Shown one piece after another: positions 5,519-34,504 of a stretch of 34,504 nt of DNA. The notes beneath the pieces were generated by a model that was not told the DNA's origin, made no database searches, and was given only the letters and a program-made list of their open reading frames with translations. Numbering within the stretch: position 1 is the stretch's first letter; each line of letters starts with the position of its first letter. This stretch comes from Methanosarcinales archaeon. Its GTDB lineage: Archaea > Halobacteriota > Methanosarcinia > Methanosarcinales > Methanogasteraceae. The position numbers and the translations under genes are program-made. The stretch lies in NCBI GenBank assembly GCA_004211975.1, contig RXIK01000117.1, forward strand, positions 1-34,504, written 5' to 3'.

Positions 5519-5839
5519 GCAGGGGTGGGCGCGGCGGATGATGTGAATGTGACATTTGAAGGACGTTTCGGGGTTCTGTGTAATCAGTGTTATTCTGTGG
5601 CTAAAAGCTTTTATCAGCCACAGATTTCACAGAGGGACACCGATTAAATGTTATTTGCCCAAGATCAAGGTTCATTCAAGAGATTTCATACTGTGGTTGG
5701 GCTTATCCGACCGCACCACCGACGAGGCTGTGACCCGAACACCACATAGTGTGACAGCGCCCTTCTCAAGAAGGCTTTATGCACTATGGGTTCGCACATC
5801 CATCGCATGAAGTGTGGAGAACTTCGCCATGATTTGTGC
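5519..5839. other. Gene-free stretch with a hairpin related to the MITE centre
   Basis: No convincing gene lies between the repeat copy and the glycosyltransferase. A 9-bp stem (TCTGTGGCT at 5594-5602 with AGCCACAGA at 5616-5624) encloses AAAAGC-rich sequence and is followed by a TTTCACAGA-type motif. This strongly resembles the central part of the 245-bp MITE-like element (CTGTGGC...TTTTAGCCACAG...TTTCACAGATTA), but no terminal repeats are seen. It may be a decayed relative. Confidence 0.45.
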
Positions 5840-25451: not shown

Positions 25452-25459
25452 GGAATTGA
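25452..25459. repeat. 8-bp target-site duplication, left of MITE copy A
   Basis: GGAATTGA here is repeated exactly at 25705-25712, directly on both sides of MITE copy A. Confidence 0.8.
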
Positions 25460-25704
25460 GAGACTTTTTAATTTGTTCTGGTCGGTTGAACAACATGATG
25501 CCAATCCTGCAAACAGTGGCAGGATATGACTTCCGAATCAGTGAAATCAGTGTTTATCTGTGGCAAATAAAACTTTTAGCCACAGATTAACACTGATTTC
25601 ACAGATTAACGATATAAATGACTTTTCAGATTGCTAGCGCTCAATTTTATCAGTTTTGCTTACACAAGACAACCCAGGGTAACCAGAAAATAATAAAAAG
25701 TCTC
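25460..25704 (+). mobile_element. MITE-like element, copy A (245 bp, complete)
   Basis: The element begins GAGACTTTTTAATTTGTTCT and ends in the reverse complement of GAGACTTTTTATTATTTTCT, giving terminal inverted repeats that match at about 20 of 23 bases. It is flanked by an exact 8-bp direct repeat GGAATTGA. The interior holds a hairpin (CTGTGGC...GCCACAG) and the phrase AACACTGATTTCACAGATTA, but no transposase gene. It is therefore non-autonomous. Copies B (28174-28419) and C (from 34344) are about 90% or more identical by eye. Copy A lies between bud32 and the winged-helix gene. Confidence 0.88.
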
Positions 25705-25712
25705 GGAATTGA
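25705..25712. repeat. 8-bp target-site duplication, right of MITE copy A
   Basis: GGAATTGA, identical to 25452-25459. Confidence 0.8.
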
Positions 25713-27041: not shown

Positions 27042-27085
27042 CCACCCGAAGGACAGTTTTTACTCGATTTTTTGCGAAAAAATCG
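27042..27085 (-). repeat. Dispersed 44-bp repeat, copy 2 (inverted)
   Basis: This is the reverse complement of 131-174 with three differences. It contains the hairpin CGATTTTTT-GCG-AAAAAATCG (27065-27085) followed by TTTTT. It lies in the spacer upstream of the NapH-like gene, where it could also act as a terminator for upstream transcription. Confidence 0.7.
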
Positions 27086-27145
27086 TTTTTGAGGGACCAA
27101 AACATTTTTGAATAATGTATCACTATACTCTAACGGGAGCGGAAT

Positions 27146-28173: not shown

Positions 28174-28419
28174 GAGACTTTTTAATTTGTTCTGGTTGGT
28201 TGAACAACATGATGCCAATCCTGCAAAAAGTGGCAGGATATGACTTCCGAAATCAGTGAAATCAGTGTTAATCTGTGGCAAATAAAACTTTTAGCCACAG
28301 ATGAACGCTGATTTCACAGATTAACGATATAAATGACTTTTCAGATCGATAGCGCTCAATTTTATCAGTTGTGCTTACACAAGACAACCCCTGGTAACCA
28401 GAAAATAATAAAAAGTCTC
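28174..28419 (+). mobile_element. MITE-like element, copy B (246 bp, complete)
   Basis: It has the same terminal inverted repeats and interior as copy A (GAGACTTTTTAATTTGTTCT at the left, AATAATAAAAAGTCTC at the right), one base longer. It has a 7-of-8 flanking duplication, so the insertion is older or one flank has mutated. It lies just after the NapH-like gene. No coding sequence is inside. Confidence 0.86.
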
Positions 28420-28858: not shown

Positions 28859-29059
28859 TCAATCACCATCATCAAAGATGAACAGCTCCTCAATCGTCGT
28901 CTCCAGAACCTTTGCAACATCATGAGCCAGTTTGAGCGACGGATTGTACTTTCCCTTCTCAAGAAACACAATTGTCTCCCGTCTCACCCCGACCTTCTTT
29001 GCGAGCTCTTCCTGCGTCAGATTATACCGTGCTCGCAGCTCCTTGATTCTGGTGTTCAC
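28859..29059 (-). CDS. XRE-family helix-turn-helix regulator (YozG-like)
   Basis: This is a 66-residue single-domain regulator: [60 protein letters not shown], a textbook short XRE fold like YozG. It starts at a GTG whose bases overlap the stop of the DUF2178 gene upstream, so it is the last gene of the array. It is the natural candidate for controlling the array promoter. A truncated relative occurs inside the array at 30427-30525. Confidence 0.88.
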
Positions 29060-29460
29060 CGGGCGTCGCCCCTCCGATTATAATACCACGTGAGCATGAT
29101 CCACGACCCCATACCAACAAGGAAGAGCTTGGGCGAAACAATCCTATAATCAAGATTTAGTCTTCCGAACATGGATATTAATTGAACGAGAGACAGGGTC
29201 ACAAGCAGAATCAAGAACGCATGATAACCTGCCTTCTCCTTGATTCTATTAGACCGTTCGTCCTGTATCAGGTCATCTTTTGGTCTTGCTGCTGTGATGG
29301 TAGCTATGGTGATTGCACCAACCCCCATGATGATCATGGCAAAACCAATCCCCGGATAGGTGGAACCGGGAAGAAAACTCATCATAAGAATACCGGTGAT
29401 TATTAATAGAACAGCAATACCGATGAAACGCAGGATATATTTGTCACTTCTGAATTTCAT
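29056..29460 (-). CDS. DUF2178-type membrane protein, unit 1 (subtype A)
   Basis: This 134-residue membrane protein has four predicted helices in two pairs. The pairs are separated by a conserved cytoplasmic segment, [19 protein letters not shown], which carries the DER motif (67-69). The C-terminus is [10 protein letters not shown]. It belongs to the DUF2178-like small membrane protein family. I chose the ATG at 29460, whose bases overlap the stop of unit 2 (TGATG). It closely matches unit 4 (30522-30926), sharing for example SMFGRLNL and [10 protein letters not shown]. Function unknown. Confidence 0.8.
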
Positions 29461-29867
29461 CAAACCACATCCCCCTTCCTGCTGTAGTGCCACCTGAAAA
29501 CGCTCCACGAAATCGTTCCGACAACCATCGCCGCATAGTACAGATCCACAAGTTCGATTCCGATCTGCCATGCCCGATCCGACCAAAACAGGACGGTTAT
29601 CGATACCAGAACCAGCCAGAACGCAGAGTTGCCTGCTTTTTCGTTGACTCTCGTGACCCGCTCGTCTGCCACGAGTTCTGTTTCCGGCTTTGTTGCGGCG
29701 TGTAACAATATAGCAAACATAAGCAGCCCGGCAACGATCAAAACCAGACTAAGGAAGACCTGCGCTCCGGAAGTCATCCCTAAGGGCATTATGGCAATAA
29801 CCAGCACAATCACAATCAGAACGACCCGTATAAACGACAGAATCTTCTTGTTTGCCATTATACTCAT
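29460..29867 (-). CDS. DUF2178-type membrane protein, unit 2 (subtype B)
   Basis: This 135-residue protein has four helices and the central motif LVADERVTRVNEKAGNSAFW. The C-terminus FRWHYSRKGDVV matches the array consensus. Subtype B is defined by VADERVTR and by FWSDRAWQIGIELVDLYYA after the motif. It starts directly at the stop of the small ORF upstream (TGA then ATG) and overlaps unit 1 by TGATG. Function unknown. Confidence 0.78.
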   Translation of the reverse strand: MSIMANKKILSFIRVVLIVIVLVIAIMPLGMTSGAQVFLSLVLIVAGLLMFAILLHAATKPETELVADERVTRVNEKAGNSAFWLVLVSITVLFWSDRAWQIGIELVDLYYAAMVVGTISWSVFRWHYSRKGDVV

Positions 29868-30008
29868 TCATACATCCCCTGTTAGATAGAAGCAATCAAC
29901 CCCCAAAACACTGCCAGATAGCAGGAACCAGTGCAGACTCATCGCTCCTACAGCTGTTTTTGCCATTCTTGACAGGCGTTCACTTTTTCCATGATCGGTG
30001 CCCCTCAT
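29868..30008 (-). CDS. Possible 46-residue ORF between DUF2178 units 2 and 3
   Basis: The ATG overlaps the unit 3 stop by ATGA and its stop abuts the unit 2 start, so it fills the gap exactly. The product begins MRGTDHGKSERLSRMAKTAV, then has a hydrophobic stretch (AMSLHWFLLSGSVLGV). It may be a small membrane peptide, or decayed sequence kept open by chance. I see no homology to its neighbours. Confidence 0.35.
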   Translation of the reverse strand: MRGTDHGKSERLSRMAKTAVGAMSLHWFLLSGSVLGVDCFYLTGDV

Positions 30009-30391
30009 ACCACCTCACCCATCCTTCTGTAGTACCAGAAAGATATGCCATAAGAAAAGATTACAACGGAGAGGGTTGCATAGTATAAACTACTAAGTTC
30101 AAGGTCCAATGACCAGATTTTATCCACCCAGAATAGTACTGTTACGGATAACAAAACCATCACGAGCGCGTTCAAACTGGCTTTTCCTTTGATCTTCGTA
30201 ACCCTTTCATCCACCACAAATTCAGTTCTTCGTTTTGATGTTGCAGCAGATAACGCTATGATGACCGCCATAAATACCCCACCACAAAACAGTGCTCCAT
30301 AATATATCCGGAACTGGAACGCAAGCACACCCAATAAAATCGACCCCAGACATATAGTGAGCAAAATCTTTTTGTTTGTTCTTATTTTCAT
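30005..30391 (-). CDS. DUF2178-type membrane protein, unit 3 (subtype B)
   Basis: This 128-residue protein starts MKIRTNKKILLTICLGSILLG. It has four helices with the central motif FVVDERVTKIKGKASLNAL and FWVDKIWSLDLELSSLYYA after it. The KIWSLDLEL block is shared with unit 5 (KIWSLNLELEDMYW). The C-terminus is FWYYRRMGEVV. The ATG at 30391 follows the hybrid HTH/lipoprotein scar by 35 bp. Function unknown. Confidence 0.78.
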   Translation of the reverse strand: MKIRTNKKILLTICLGSILLGVLAFQFRIYYGALFCGGVFMAVIIALSAATSKRRTEFVVDERVTKIKGKASLNALVMVLLSVTVLFWVDKIWSLDLELSSLYYATLSVVIFSYGISFWYYRRMGEVV

Positions 30392-30426
30392 TTACATCGC
30401 CCGCGTTCCCAGATTAAAACACGAAG

Positions 30427-30525
30427 TCACACAATCGACTCCGCTGCTCTTATCAGCTTGTCCTTCTCAAGTTCCTCCTGAGTCCGGCTGTATCGCGCCC
30501 GCAGTTCCTCGATTCTGGTTTTCAC
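30427..30525 (-). pseudogene. Hybrid relic: HTH N-terminus fused to a LolA-like protein tail
   Basis: This 32-codon ORF begins with a GTG overlapping the unit 4 stop, exactly as the intact HTH does after unit 1. Its first half (MKTRIEELRARYSRTQEEL) matches the intact regulator [19 protein letters not shown]. Its second half (EKDKLIRAAESIV, then stop) matches the last residues of the lipoprotein at 32720 (EKGELVKVAESLV, then stop), with similar DNA across the stop. A deletion thus joined the start of one HTH gene to the end of another lipoprotein gene. Confidence 0.75.
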
Positions 30526-30926
30526 ACGATATCCTCCCTTCGATTATAATACCATCTGAGTATAACAAACGAAAGCATTCCAACAAAGAAAATATCAGGC
30601 GAAACGCTCTTATAGCTAAGATTTAATCTCCCAAACATAGCTATTGATTGAACAAGAGCCATGGTCCCAAGCAGAATCCAGAACGCATGATAACCTGCCT
30701 TTTCCTTAATTCTCTCAGACCTTTCATCCTGTATCATATCTTCTTTAGGTCTTGTTGCTGCACCGATTGCCATGACGATCGCAATAATCCCCACGATGAT
30801 CAGGACAGAACCGATCCCGAAATAGGTGGGACCGGGAAGAAAACTCATCATGAGGATGCCGGCGAGGATCCATAGAACAGCAATGCCTGAAAAACGCAGG
30901 ATATCTTTATCTTTTCTTATTTTCAT
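30522..30926 (-). CDS. DUF2178-type membrane protein, unit 4 (subtype A)
   Basis: This 134-residue paralogue of unit 1 starts MKIRKDKDILRFSGIAVLWIL, has the motif [20 protein letters not shown] and the following block SIAMFGRLNLSYKSVSP. The C-terminus is LRWYYNRREDIV. I chose the ATG at 30926, which overlaps the unit 5 stop by ATGA. An upstream in-frame ATG would overlap more. The high similarity to unit 1 and the position before an HTH start support block duplication. Function unknown. Confidence 0.8.
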   Translation of the reverse strand: MKIRKDKDILRFSGIAVLWILAGILMMSFLPGPTYFGIGSVLIIVGIIAIVMAIGAATRPKEDMIQDERSERIKEKAGYHAFWILLGTMALVQSIAMFGRLNLSYKSVSPDIFFVGMLSFVILRWYYNRREDIV

Positions 30927-31330
30927 ACTACCTCCCCTCTCCTGTTGTAGTACCATCTGAGTATAAGCCAGGAATATGTTCCGGTGAGCAGGGTTGTCCA
31001 GTACATATCCTCAAGTTCGAGGTTTAATGACCAGATTTTATCTGCCCAAAACAGAATCATTACAGCTAACAAGACCAGCAAGCCTGCGGTATAACCTGCT
31101 TTTTCATTGATTCTCGTGACCCTTTCATCTGCTATAAGCTCTGTTTTTGGTTTTGTCGCGGCGTATACCACCATAGCAGACATAAATAGCCAAGCAAAAA
31201 TTAAACTAAATTCTATGAAAAATATGGCTTTGGATTGTGCTTGAAATATCAACATAACTACACCCAACAGAACCGACCCCAGACCAATTCCTGAAATGAG
31301 TAAAATCTTTTTATCAGTTCTTATTTTCAT
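30923..31330 (-). CDS. DUF2178-type membrane protein, unit 5 (subtype B)
   Basis: This 135-residue protein starts MKIRTDKKILLISGIGLGSVLLG. It has four helices with the motif LIADERVTRINEKAGYTAGL and FWADKIWSLNLELEDMYW. The C-terminus is LRWYYNRRGEVV. It overlaps units 4 and 6 by ATGA at both ends. Function unknown. Confidence 0.8.
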   Translation of the reverse strand: MKIRTDKKILLISGIGLGSVLLGVVMLIFQAQSKAIFFIEFSLIFAWLFMSAMVVYAATKPKTELIADERVTRINEKAGYTAGLLVLLAVMILFWADKIWSLNLELEDMYWTTLLTGTYSWLILRWYYNRRGEVV

Positions 31331-31716
31331 ACTACATCACCTTTTTTGTTGCACATCCATTGGGATGCAAGCCACACATACATCCCAACGAAAAATAGCA
31401 ATGCGTATATTTGAGATGGTGACGGCATCCATATTTTATAAAAATAAAGCAAATTGAGGATAATTATCAAGATAATCATTGTGTTAAATGCATGATAACC
31501 TGCTTTTTCTTTGTTTCTTACTGATCGCTCATCTTCAATAAAATCTTCTTTTGACTTTGCAGCATTGTATAATACGCCAAGTGTCAGGATTAATCCTGCA
31601 AGAATCCACCCATACCCTATATCAAAACCAAGCATCAGGATTGCTGAACCCAATGCAATTGATCCCATGCTCAGCATCAAACGATTCCTCACATCTTCAT
31701 CTGTTCTTATTTTCAT
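31327..31716 (-). CDS. DUF2178-type membrane protein, unit 6 (subtype C)
   Basis: This 129-residue protein starts MKIRTDEDVRNRLMLSMGS and has the motif [20 protein letters not shown]. The C-terminus is SQWMCNKKGDVV, close to the array consensus. Its DNA is more A+T-rich than that of units 1-5. It overlaps its neighbours by ATGA. Function unknown. Confidence 0.78.
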   Translation of the reverse strand: MKIRTDEDVRNRLMLSMGSIALGSAILMLGFDIGYGWILAGLILTLGVLYNAAKSKEDFIEDERSVRNKEKAGYHAFNTMIILIIILNLLYFYKIWMPSPSQIYALLFFVGMYVWLASQWMCNKKGDVV

Positions 31717-32675
31717 CCCACATCACCTTTTTTCACAATCACTTTTTCTTCTACCATTGGATGTTGGATTCTTTGAGACATCTCGTAGGTGGTATTTGCG
31801 CGTTTTAGCAGGTCATCTATTTCTTTTTCTGTTATTTCAGGATTCTCAAGTTTTAGTATGATTTCATCACTGACGTTTGCGTAACTCAGCAAAGTTTTCC
31901 TTAAAAATCCTTCTATGGCTGTTGTTGTTGTTGGGGTGAAATCAGAAAAAATACCTTCTTTGGAATAAACCGTAATTCTTCCCGTATCTAAATACTCTTC
32001 GTGAACCACAAAAAATAAGAAGATACTGTCGTCCACCAATGCTTGTTTTGCCGATTCAATATCTCTGTACTCTGTAAAATTACCCCCGCATTCTGCAAAA
32101 TTTTGAGCGGGTTTCAATATATTTGAATCGTCTACAAATCCTATATTTCCAAGATTATCTGGAATTATTAATGATGGACAATTTATTAAAACAATCAGTC
32201 CAGATATAAGAATAAGGATAAAAAAAGCAGAAAATAAAAGCTTATTTTCTTTGACAGTTCTTATGATGTAACCGATCCCTCTCTTGTTATAGCAAGAATT
32301 TAAGATGAAAAGTGAAAACAGTCCTATAAAAATAGTTGCAGAGAGTACATCGCTGGTTTCAAGATTGTATAACCCCTTTTCATTTGCCAATAACATTAGA
32401 CCGACCGACACTAAAATTATCCAAAATGTGGTAGACCCTGCTCTTTGATAATTCCTTTCAGTTCTTTCATCTGGCAGAACCTCTGATTCGGATTTATTTG
32501 CTGCATACAATCCATAACCGAGTGTGAACATCCCAAACCAAAAACTACTATCAATAAGAATACATCGGATAATATTTTCACTATTAAGACACCTAATTAT
32601 GCCCTCTGAAATTATCACTATCCCTGCTATCAATGCTCCTACAACAAGTGCATCTTTGTTGTTTCTAATTTTCAT
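31713..32675 (-). CDS. DUF2178 unit 7 fused to an ABC-2 permease-like extracellular domain
   Basis: This is a 320-residue protein. Residues 1-140 or so are a DUF2178 unit: MKIRNNKDALVVGALIAG, four helices, central motif VLPDERTERNYQRAGSTTFW, and NSCYNKRGIGYIIRTVKENK at the end. Another helix follows (LLFSAFFILILISGLIVLIN). The next part resembles the external domain of ABC-2 type permeases: NIGFVDDSNILKP, YRDIESAKQALVDDSIFLFFV, then EEYLDTGRITVYSKEG. The permease helices that should follow are missing. I chose the ATG at 32675, since MKIR starts are shared by the units. It may sense or bind an external ligand. Confidence 0.7.
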   Translation of the reverse strand: MKIRNNKDALVVGALIAGIVIISEGIIRCLNSENIIRCILIDSSFWFGMFTLGYGLYAANKSESEVLPDERTERNYQRAGSTTFWIILVSVGLMLLANEKGLYNLETSDVLSATIFIGLFSLFILNSCYNKRGIGYIIRTVKENKLLFSAFFILILISGLIVLINCPSLIIPDNLGNIGFVDDSNILKPAQNFAECGGNFTEYRDIESAKQALVDDSIFLFFVVHEEYLDTGRITVYSKEGIFSDFTPTTTTAIEGFLRKTLLSYANVSDEIILKLENPEITEKEIDDLLKRANTTYEMSQRIQHPMVEEKVIVKKGDVG

Positions 32676-32719
32676 CCAACACCACCACCAACCCTCGCAT
32701 AAATAAAAGAAGTGCAGAG

Positions 32720-33941: not shown

Positions 33942-34202
33942 ATGTCAACATACACAAGTATAAAAGTAAAAGGCATCACCAAAAATAAACTGGATGTCTT
34001 GCAATCAAGATTCACCATCAACACCGGTAAGAACATATCCCTTCAAAACTTGCTTGATAAGATCTCGGATTATGCCCTGATGCATGAAAATGAACTCATA
34101 AAAAAGATGCCCGCATTGAAGGATGACCCGGCATGGAGCGAGACTATGGATTGGGGCGAAGAGACCAACGCCTCAAAGGTGGATGAATACCTGTATCGAT
34201 GA
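33942..34202 (+). CDS. VapB-like antitoxin
   Basis: This 86-residue protein begins STYTSIKVKGITKNKLDVLQSRFTINTGKNISLQNLLDKI, an RHH/VapB-like DNA-binding region. Its C-terminus WGEETNASKVDEYLYR resembles the tail by which VapB blocks PIN toxins. It is followed after 9 bp by the frameshifted PIN-domain gene. With the toxin broken, the antitoxin may be kept as a regulator or as an anti-addiction relic. Confidence 0.72.
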   Translation: MSTYTSIKVKGITKNKLDVLQSRFTINTGKNISLQNLLDKISDYALMHENELIKKMPALKDDPAWSETMDWGEETNASKVDEYLYR

Positions 34203-34211
34203 GAGCGGGCA

Positions 34212-34343
34212 ATGGCTGTATTTATTGATACCGGAACATTCATGGCATACAGGAATAAAAAGACGTACACCATAGCGAGGCGGATTGCCTGTTACGACGC
34301 GCCCTGCAAGGGGAGTTTGGCACCATATTCACTACCGATTTCA
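34212..34343 (+). pseudogene. VapC-like PIN-domain toxin gene, frameshifted and interrupted by MITE copy C
   Basis: The ATG at 34212 opens a typical VapC start, MAVFIDTGTFMAYRNKK, with the first PIN aspartate at residue 6. The frame then breaks near 34266: the matching continuation HHSEADCLLRRALQGEFGTIFTTDF is read in another frame from 34268, equivalent to losing one base. After TTDF the MITE-like element begins (34344), removing the rest of the domain. The gene was thus hit at least twice. Confidence 0.75.
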
Positions 34344-34504
34344 GAGACTTTTTAATTTGTTCTGGTCGGTTGAACAACATGATGTCAATCCTGCAAACAG
34401 TGGCATGATCTGACTTCCTAAATCAGTGGAATCAGCGTTCATCTGTGGCAAATAAAACTTTTAGCCACAGATTAACACTGATTTCACAGATTAACGATAT
34501 AAAT
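34344..34504 (+). mobile_element. MITE-like element, copy C (truncated by the window end)
   Basis: It begins GAGACTTTTTAATTTGTTCT like copies A and B and runs for 161 bases to the end of the window, so its right end and target duplication cannot be seen. The eight bases before it are CGATTTCA. It lies inside the PIN-domain coding sequence. Confidence 0.85.

Follow-up and report, generated by a model that had tools for sequence, protein, structure and literature searches.

The window, meaning the whole 34,504-nucleotide stretch of DNA that was analysed, is contig C97 of an archaeal assembly of 2.66 Mb in 249 contigs, which is 87% complete. It encodes the methyltransferase subunits MtrE and MtrH, as expected for a methanogen or anaerobic methanotroph. 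On the minus strand, positions 29000–32700 hold related genes in tandem for small, membrane-protein-like products of about 128–176 aa, one longer; several of the genes are 60–86% alike at the DNA level. A short dispersed repeat, ACGATTTTTTCACAAAAAATCGAGTAAAAACTGCCCTYCGGG, is present at 130–174, 193–228 and 27042–27086. The window also contains three copies of another repeat, a MITE with GAGAC-type termini.

Copy A (25460–25704, plus strand) is 245 bp long and is bounded by an exact 8-bp target site duplication, GGAATTGA, at 25452–25459 on the left and 25705–25712 on the right. The inverted termini are ~22 bp long, with the left repeat GAGACTTTTTAATTTGTTCTGGT at 25460–25482 (plus strand) and the right repeat, GAGACTTTTTATTATTTTCTGGT when read inward, at 25682–25704 (minus strand). 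Between them lies an imperfect hairpin core (25536–25607) with 32-nt arms that are 91% complementary and an 8-nt loop, giving fold-back z scores of -7.6 as DNA and -8.8 as RNA. Copy B (28174–28419, plus strand) is 246 bp, ~96% identical to copy A and flanked by CAAAATCT and CAAAATCC, which agree at seven of eight positions. Copy C (34344–34504, plus strand) consists of the left 161 bp, and its second end is not visible because the contig ends inside the copy. All three copies begin with the terminus GAGACTTTTTAATTTG without mismatch (25460, 28174 and 34344), and its inverted partner is found at 25689 in copy A and 28404 in copy B. Shuffled sequence would give 0.33 such matches, against the five in the window, and none of 100 shuffles reached five. 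The shared start, the inverted ends where visible, the exact duplication at copy A and the 7-of-8 duplication at copy B, all described in the original prediction, were each confirmed. At 245–246 bp the element is too short for a transposase gene, and no ORF of at least 100 aa was found inside copy A.

Copy C was also said to be inserted in a gene. It sits in a degraded VapC/PIN-like reading frame, and this part of the claim stands as far as a broken PIN-type frame can be recognised by eye; Pfam gave no match to support it. Also read by eye, the region 33942–34343 contains a small antitoxin-like ORF followed by the VapC/PIN-like frame, which is apparently frameshifted and is interrupted by copy C.

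The three copies are correct for the window, with copy C cut by the contig end, whereas the number across the host genome is about 100. The termini occur 86 times in forward and 88 times in reverse orientation (174 in total), compared to none for a reversed control pattern. The host contigs retrieved contain 109 distinct places matching the MITE, of which 47 are full, 34 truncated by a contig end, and 28 internal and partial, with some of the latter matching the hairpin core only; the number of full copies is therefore at least 47. Termini without a partner in the host genome belong to MITEs that are truncated or have diverged, or else match by chance. Divergence from a 246-bp consensus has a median of 2.8% and a range of 0.5–21%. 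Many copies have diverged little, which speaks for a recent burst. The predicted recent mobility is borne out at the level of the family, with some individual copies being old or having lost part of their sequence. Both flanks were available for 45 copies: 24 carry a perfect 8-bp duplication and 32 one with no more than a single mismatch; perfect flanking repeats at each of the other lengths between 5 and 12 bp turn up once at most. The duplication of flanking 8-mers thus extends to copies well beyond the window. The repeat is a real MITE, a non-autonomous DNA transposon of 245–246 bp.

The duplicated sites have no strict motif, with a weak A/T preference in the centre. When sites were rejoined, a stop-free span of at least 200 codons crossed only 1 of 29, compared to 77% at random positions, and insertion or survival is therefore strongly intergenic. 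Empty sites were sought by rejoining the flanks of six sites, with one duplication copy each, and searching these against the genomes of the family. The congener G004 has matches spanning four of the six joins (copy A, L095, L083, and L102). At the copy A site the match is 79% over 282 columns, with a single copy of GGAATTGA, and the 3.2-kb locus contains no MITE terminus. This site and the empty sites for the L095 and L083 copies, also at 79%, were read base by base; for L102 the evidence is a match across the join. Hence, rather than relatives sharing the sequence at the same sites with no empty alleles, G004 has empty sites for copy A and at least two other copies. A further copy (L009) lies inside another dispersed repeat, unoccupied versions of which occur in several genomes. 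The repeat next to or in which this copy is inserted is of the ACGATTTTTTCACAAAAAATCGAGTAAAAACTGCCCTYCGGG type, with many unoccupied copies in relatives.

Matches to the MITE were found in all 17 sampled genomes of Ca. Methanogasteraceae (ANME-2c), and searching the host and related genomes with the element, as originally proposed, yielded numerous copies flanked by 8-bp duplications. Exact duplications are present at two of the copies examined within this family. Among the matches inspected in other families of the order, most consist of the hairpin core or a terminus alone, and searches of plasmids with the MITE and with the transposase described below gave no match. One family member (G013; L190, L191, L192, and L195) carries an element of ~130–160 bp with GAGAC-type ends and a different fold-back core, ACCACAGAGGACACGGAGGGCACAGAG..., which is probably another MITE of the IS described next.

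The candidate parent was reached through termini in G013, a better-assembled family member, where ends adjoin an open frame with a zinc ribbon. It is a ~1.6-kb IS of Methanosarcinales encoding a zinc-ribbon/MULE-domain (Mutator-like) transposase of 428–430 aa. Complete copies of 1574–1597 bp in Methanosarcinaceae encode proteins of this length, with exact 8-bp duplications at three (AGGTTCTT, TAAAAATC, and TGATTCAA) and one mismatch at a fourth. In Methanosarcina, the end on the upstream side of the transposase gene is GAGACTTTTTATTATTTTCTGG and matches the MITE right end at 22 of 22 positions; its counterpart in an ANME-3 genome is GAGACTTTTTATTATTTTCAGG. The end downstream of the gene, GAGACTTTTTAATTTTTTCTGG, matches the MITE left end at 21 of 22 positions in the ANME-2c genome UBA261 (G009, DAWR01000009.1, 'Methanosarcinales archaeon UBA261', placed by its taxonomy in Ca. 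Methanogasteraceae of the ANME-2 cluster, and in the same family as the host), and is GAGTCTTTTTAATTTTTTCTGG in Methanosarcina. The two unequal MITE ends therefore each match the corresponding IS end variant. Similarity is limited to the first ~22 bp, with the inner sequence matching no better than shuffled sequence, and ends-only similarity is usual for archaeal MITEs (PMC3852290). An IS with the same termini and 8-bp duplications, which the original prediction suggested looking for, was thus found in related genomes, and it is the likely parent of the MITE based on these sequence matches.

Protein searches found homologues of the transposase in 5 of the 17 family genomes and, across the order, in 48 of 186; none turned up in the host assembly. 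The reported lack of a transposase in the window therefore extends, for homologues of this IS, to the whole host assembly. Three of four congeners likewise have no homologue, and the fourth has a 30-residue trace. Within ANME-2c, where contig ends and N runs occur, the IS was not recovered whole with its two ends, and pairing termini 0.6–3.5 kb apart in the host genome gave no IS. Clustering of repeated ORFs in the host genome returned only an IS605-type pair with two copies, assigned by eye. No autonomous partner was found in the host genome; a partner in the same genome is not strictly defining for a MITE, and its absence is not disqualifying because the assembly is only 87% complete.

The transposase matches the Pfam MULE family PF10551 at 2e-7, with the UBA261 protein and three of four full-length proteins above the cut-off. 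In an alignment using the numbering of L228, D174 and D254 are invariant and are followed by C275..H278 and later E371. The partner IS has 22-bp ends and 8-bp direct repeats, in line with the 18–39-bp repeats and 8–9-bp duplications of p-MULT elements (PMC3942029). C275 lies 21 residues after D254, slightly outside the 11–19 published for p-MULT. As the repeat and duplication features fit, with the C..H spacing off range, the transposase is predicted to belong to the p-MULT (Mutator-like) superfamily. An AlphaFold model has a mean pLDDT of 52, which is too low for the fold to be read. The best scores against NCBIfam models are 38.8 bits for IS256 (NF033543, cut-off 150), 25.6 bits for ISH6 (NF041731, cut-off 240), and 16 bits for ISKra4 (cut-off 205). 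As these fall far below the cut-offs, the partner transposase looks like a separate Methanosarcinales group, possibly one with an existing ISfinder name.

The MITE is thus very probably moved in trans by a p-MULT-type DDE transposase of the ~1.6-kb Methanosarcinales IS. The transposase, either this enzyme or a lost or unassembled relative, would recognise the 22-bp ends of the MITE, which would then be inserted mainly into intergenic sites, each time duplicating 8 bp of the target. Transposition may proceed via a circular intermediate, as IS256-type elements do (PMC3942029), and the hairpin may be a passenger or an aid to transposition or expression. The host's transposase may have disappeared, may be missing from the assembly, or may come from transient copies, such that the family would either be coasting after loss of its source or have its source within unassembled repeats. 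On this account, closed ANME-2c genomes would be predicted to carry, alongside the MITE, at least one intact ~1.6-kb IS that ends in GAGACTTTTTATTATYTTCTGG / GAGACTTTTTAATTTTTTCTGG-like sequences and makes 8-bp duplications.

Movement of a real MITE by another family that makes 8-bp duplications (IS1595, IS256 proper, ISL3, or ISH6) would make the terminal match to the MULE-type IS a product of shared ancestry or convergence. The missing homologue in the host assembly fits this explanation, and the sequence common to IS and MITE is only ~22 bp. However, 16 of the 17 family genomes lack IS1595 (PF12762) and 15 lack Transposase_mut (PF00872); the three PF12762 or PF00872 loci that were found have no MITE termini. 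Together with the correspondence of each MITE end variant to its own IS end variant, this makes a different mover improbable.

The explanations that deny transposition fare worse. Repeats maintained as REP/BIME-like or regulatory hairpins, because they act at transcript ends or in chromosome organisation, would account for the strong fold-back (RNA z -8.8, DNA z -7.6), the strongly intergenic placement, and the presence of the hairpin core in other repeat families. Intergenic bias is, however, also expected from selection against gene disruption, and no Rfam family was matched at its gathering threshold. The exact 8-bp duplications, the unequal termini shared with an IS, and the empty sites in a congener refute this as a complete account of the repeats, and immobile hairpins are considered very unlikely. 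There is next to no chance that repeated contig ends have multiplied one sequence by assembly or binning artefact. Contig ends truncate 34 of the 109 places, but at least 47 complete copies sit within contigs; their flanks differ, and most have a duplication of their own. Sixteen other genomes also contain related copies. The copies internal to contigs exclude an artefact.

The most unusual feature of the MITE is its hairpin core, which at least one repeat family with other ends also carries. A 26-bp core pattern matches the host genome 179 times, and across the phylum 22 of 394 genomes contain it. A second, MITE-like repeat family of ~250 bp in the host genome, with ends GGGGCTGTCACATTATG... 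/ ...GGCGTGACAGTCC, carries the same hairpin core as the GAGAC MITE at L118 (~273–526 around a core at 394–446), L121, L113, L117, and L065, with one clear 8-bp duplication, ACCGGTAT, at L118. The region around 5575–5625 of the window (minus strand) also belongs here, its core lacking GAGAC termini and representing a different repeat family with a related core rather than a copy of the GAGAC MITE. A probable third family with the core has ends near ATACGTGCAAGCTCAATGCC ... TTATGATAAACTATCGTAG (L151:14328, L125:3247, and L157:7154). On a Bacteroides finegoldii plasmid (L254, NZ_OY725914.1, 51554–51728), two genes are separated by an inverted CCACAGATTAACACAGATT-like pair that resembles the archaeal core, a weak case because its E value is 0.1. 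It is tentatively suggested, as a somewhat doubtful reading, that the hairpin, in which iterated CACAGATTAA-like units face their complement, could be a reusable module that enters several transposon families with unrelated termini. Such a module may itself be mobile, aid transposition, or shield the host from read-through. If so, the MITE would be a composite of Mutator-type ends and hairpin cargo.

That archaeal MITEs can have IS partners is well established. A MITE family with this host group and partner was not found in the open-access literature searched, nor were its sequence strings found in papers, with ISfinder outside the comparison. Within this scope, the proposal of an undescribed family is upheld by the negative searches, and the family is undescribed-looking. 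The MITE is one main repeat breaking up assemblies of ANME-2c methanotrophs, and its study points to a partner transposase that can be sought and supplies a marker of recent genome movement in these uncultured archaea.

Archaeal MITEs, including those of Methanosarcina, linked to ISMba11, ISMac21, and ISHwa6 (PMC3852290, Table 4) are likewise short and transposase-free, with tens of copies and target duplications, and share inverted ends with an autonomous IS over only ~15–26 bp, as here. None of the 18 archaeal MITEs in that table fits the present family, as none combines 245 bp, an 8-bp duplication and this partner; ANME-2c is absent as a host and the copy number of the present MITE is higher. 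The Chunjie MITE of Geobacter uraniireducens (235 bp; PMC10969869) also has tens of copies, conserved ends and internal deletions, although its host is of a different domain and the likeness is by description only. The p-MULT groups IS256, ISH6, TnGBS/ISLre2, and ISKra4 (PMC3942029) resemble the partner IS in their MULE/IS256-type catalytic domain with a C..H motif, and in repeats of 18–39 bp ending in C with 8–9-bp duplications, whereas the partner transposase falls below the IS256, ISH6, and ISKra4 cut-offs. Despite a target motif, AANATNTT (PMC3942029), that is not seen in the duplications of the present MITE with their weakly A/T-rich centre, the ISH6 family (archaeal p-MULT 2) is similar in consisting of euryarchaeal Mutator-like ISs that generate 8-bp duplications.
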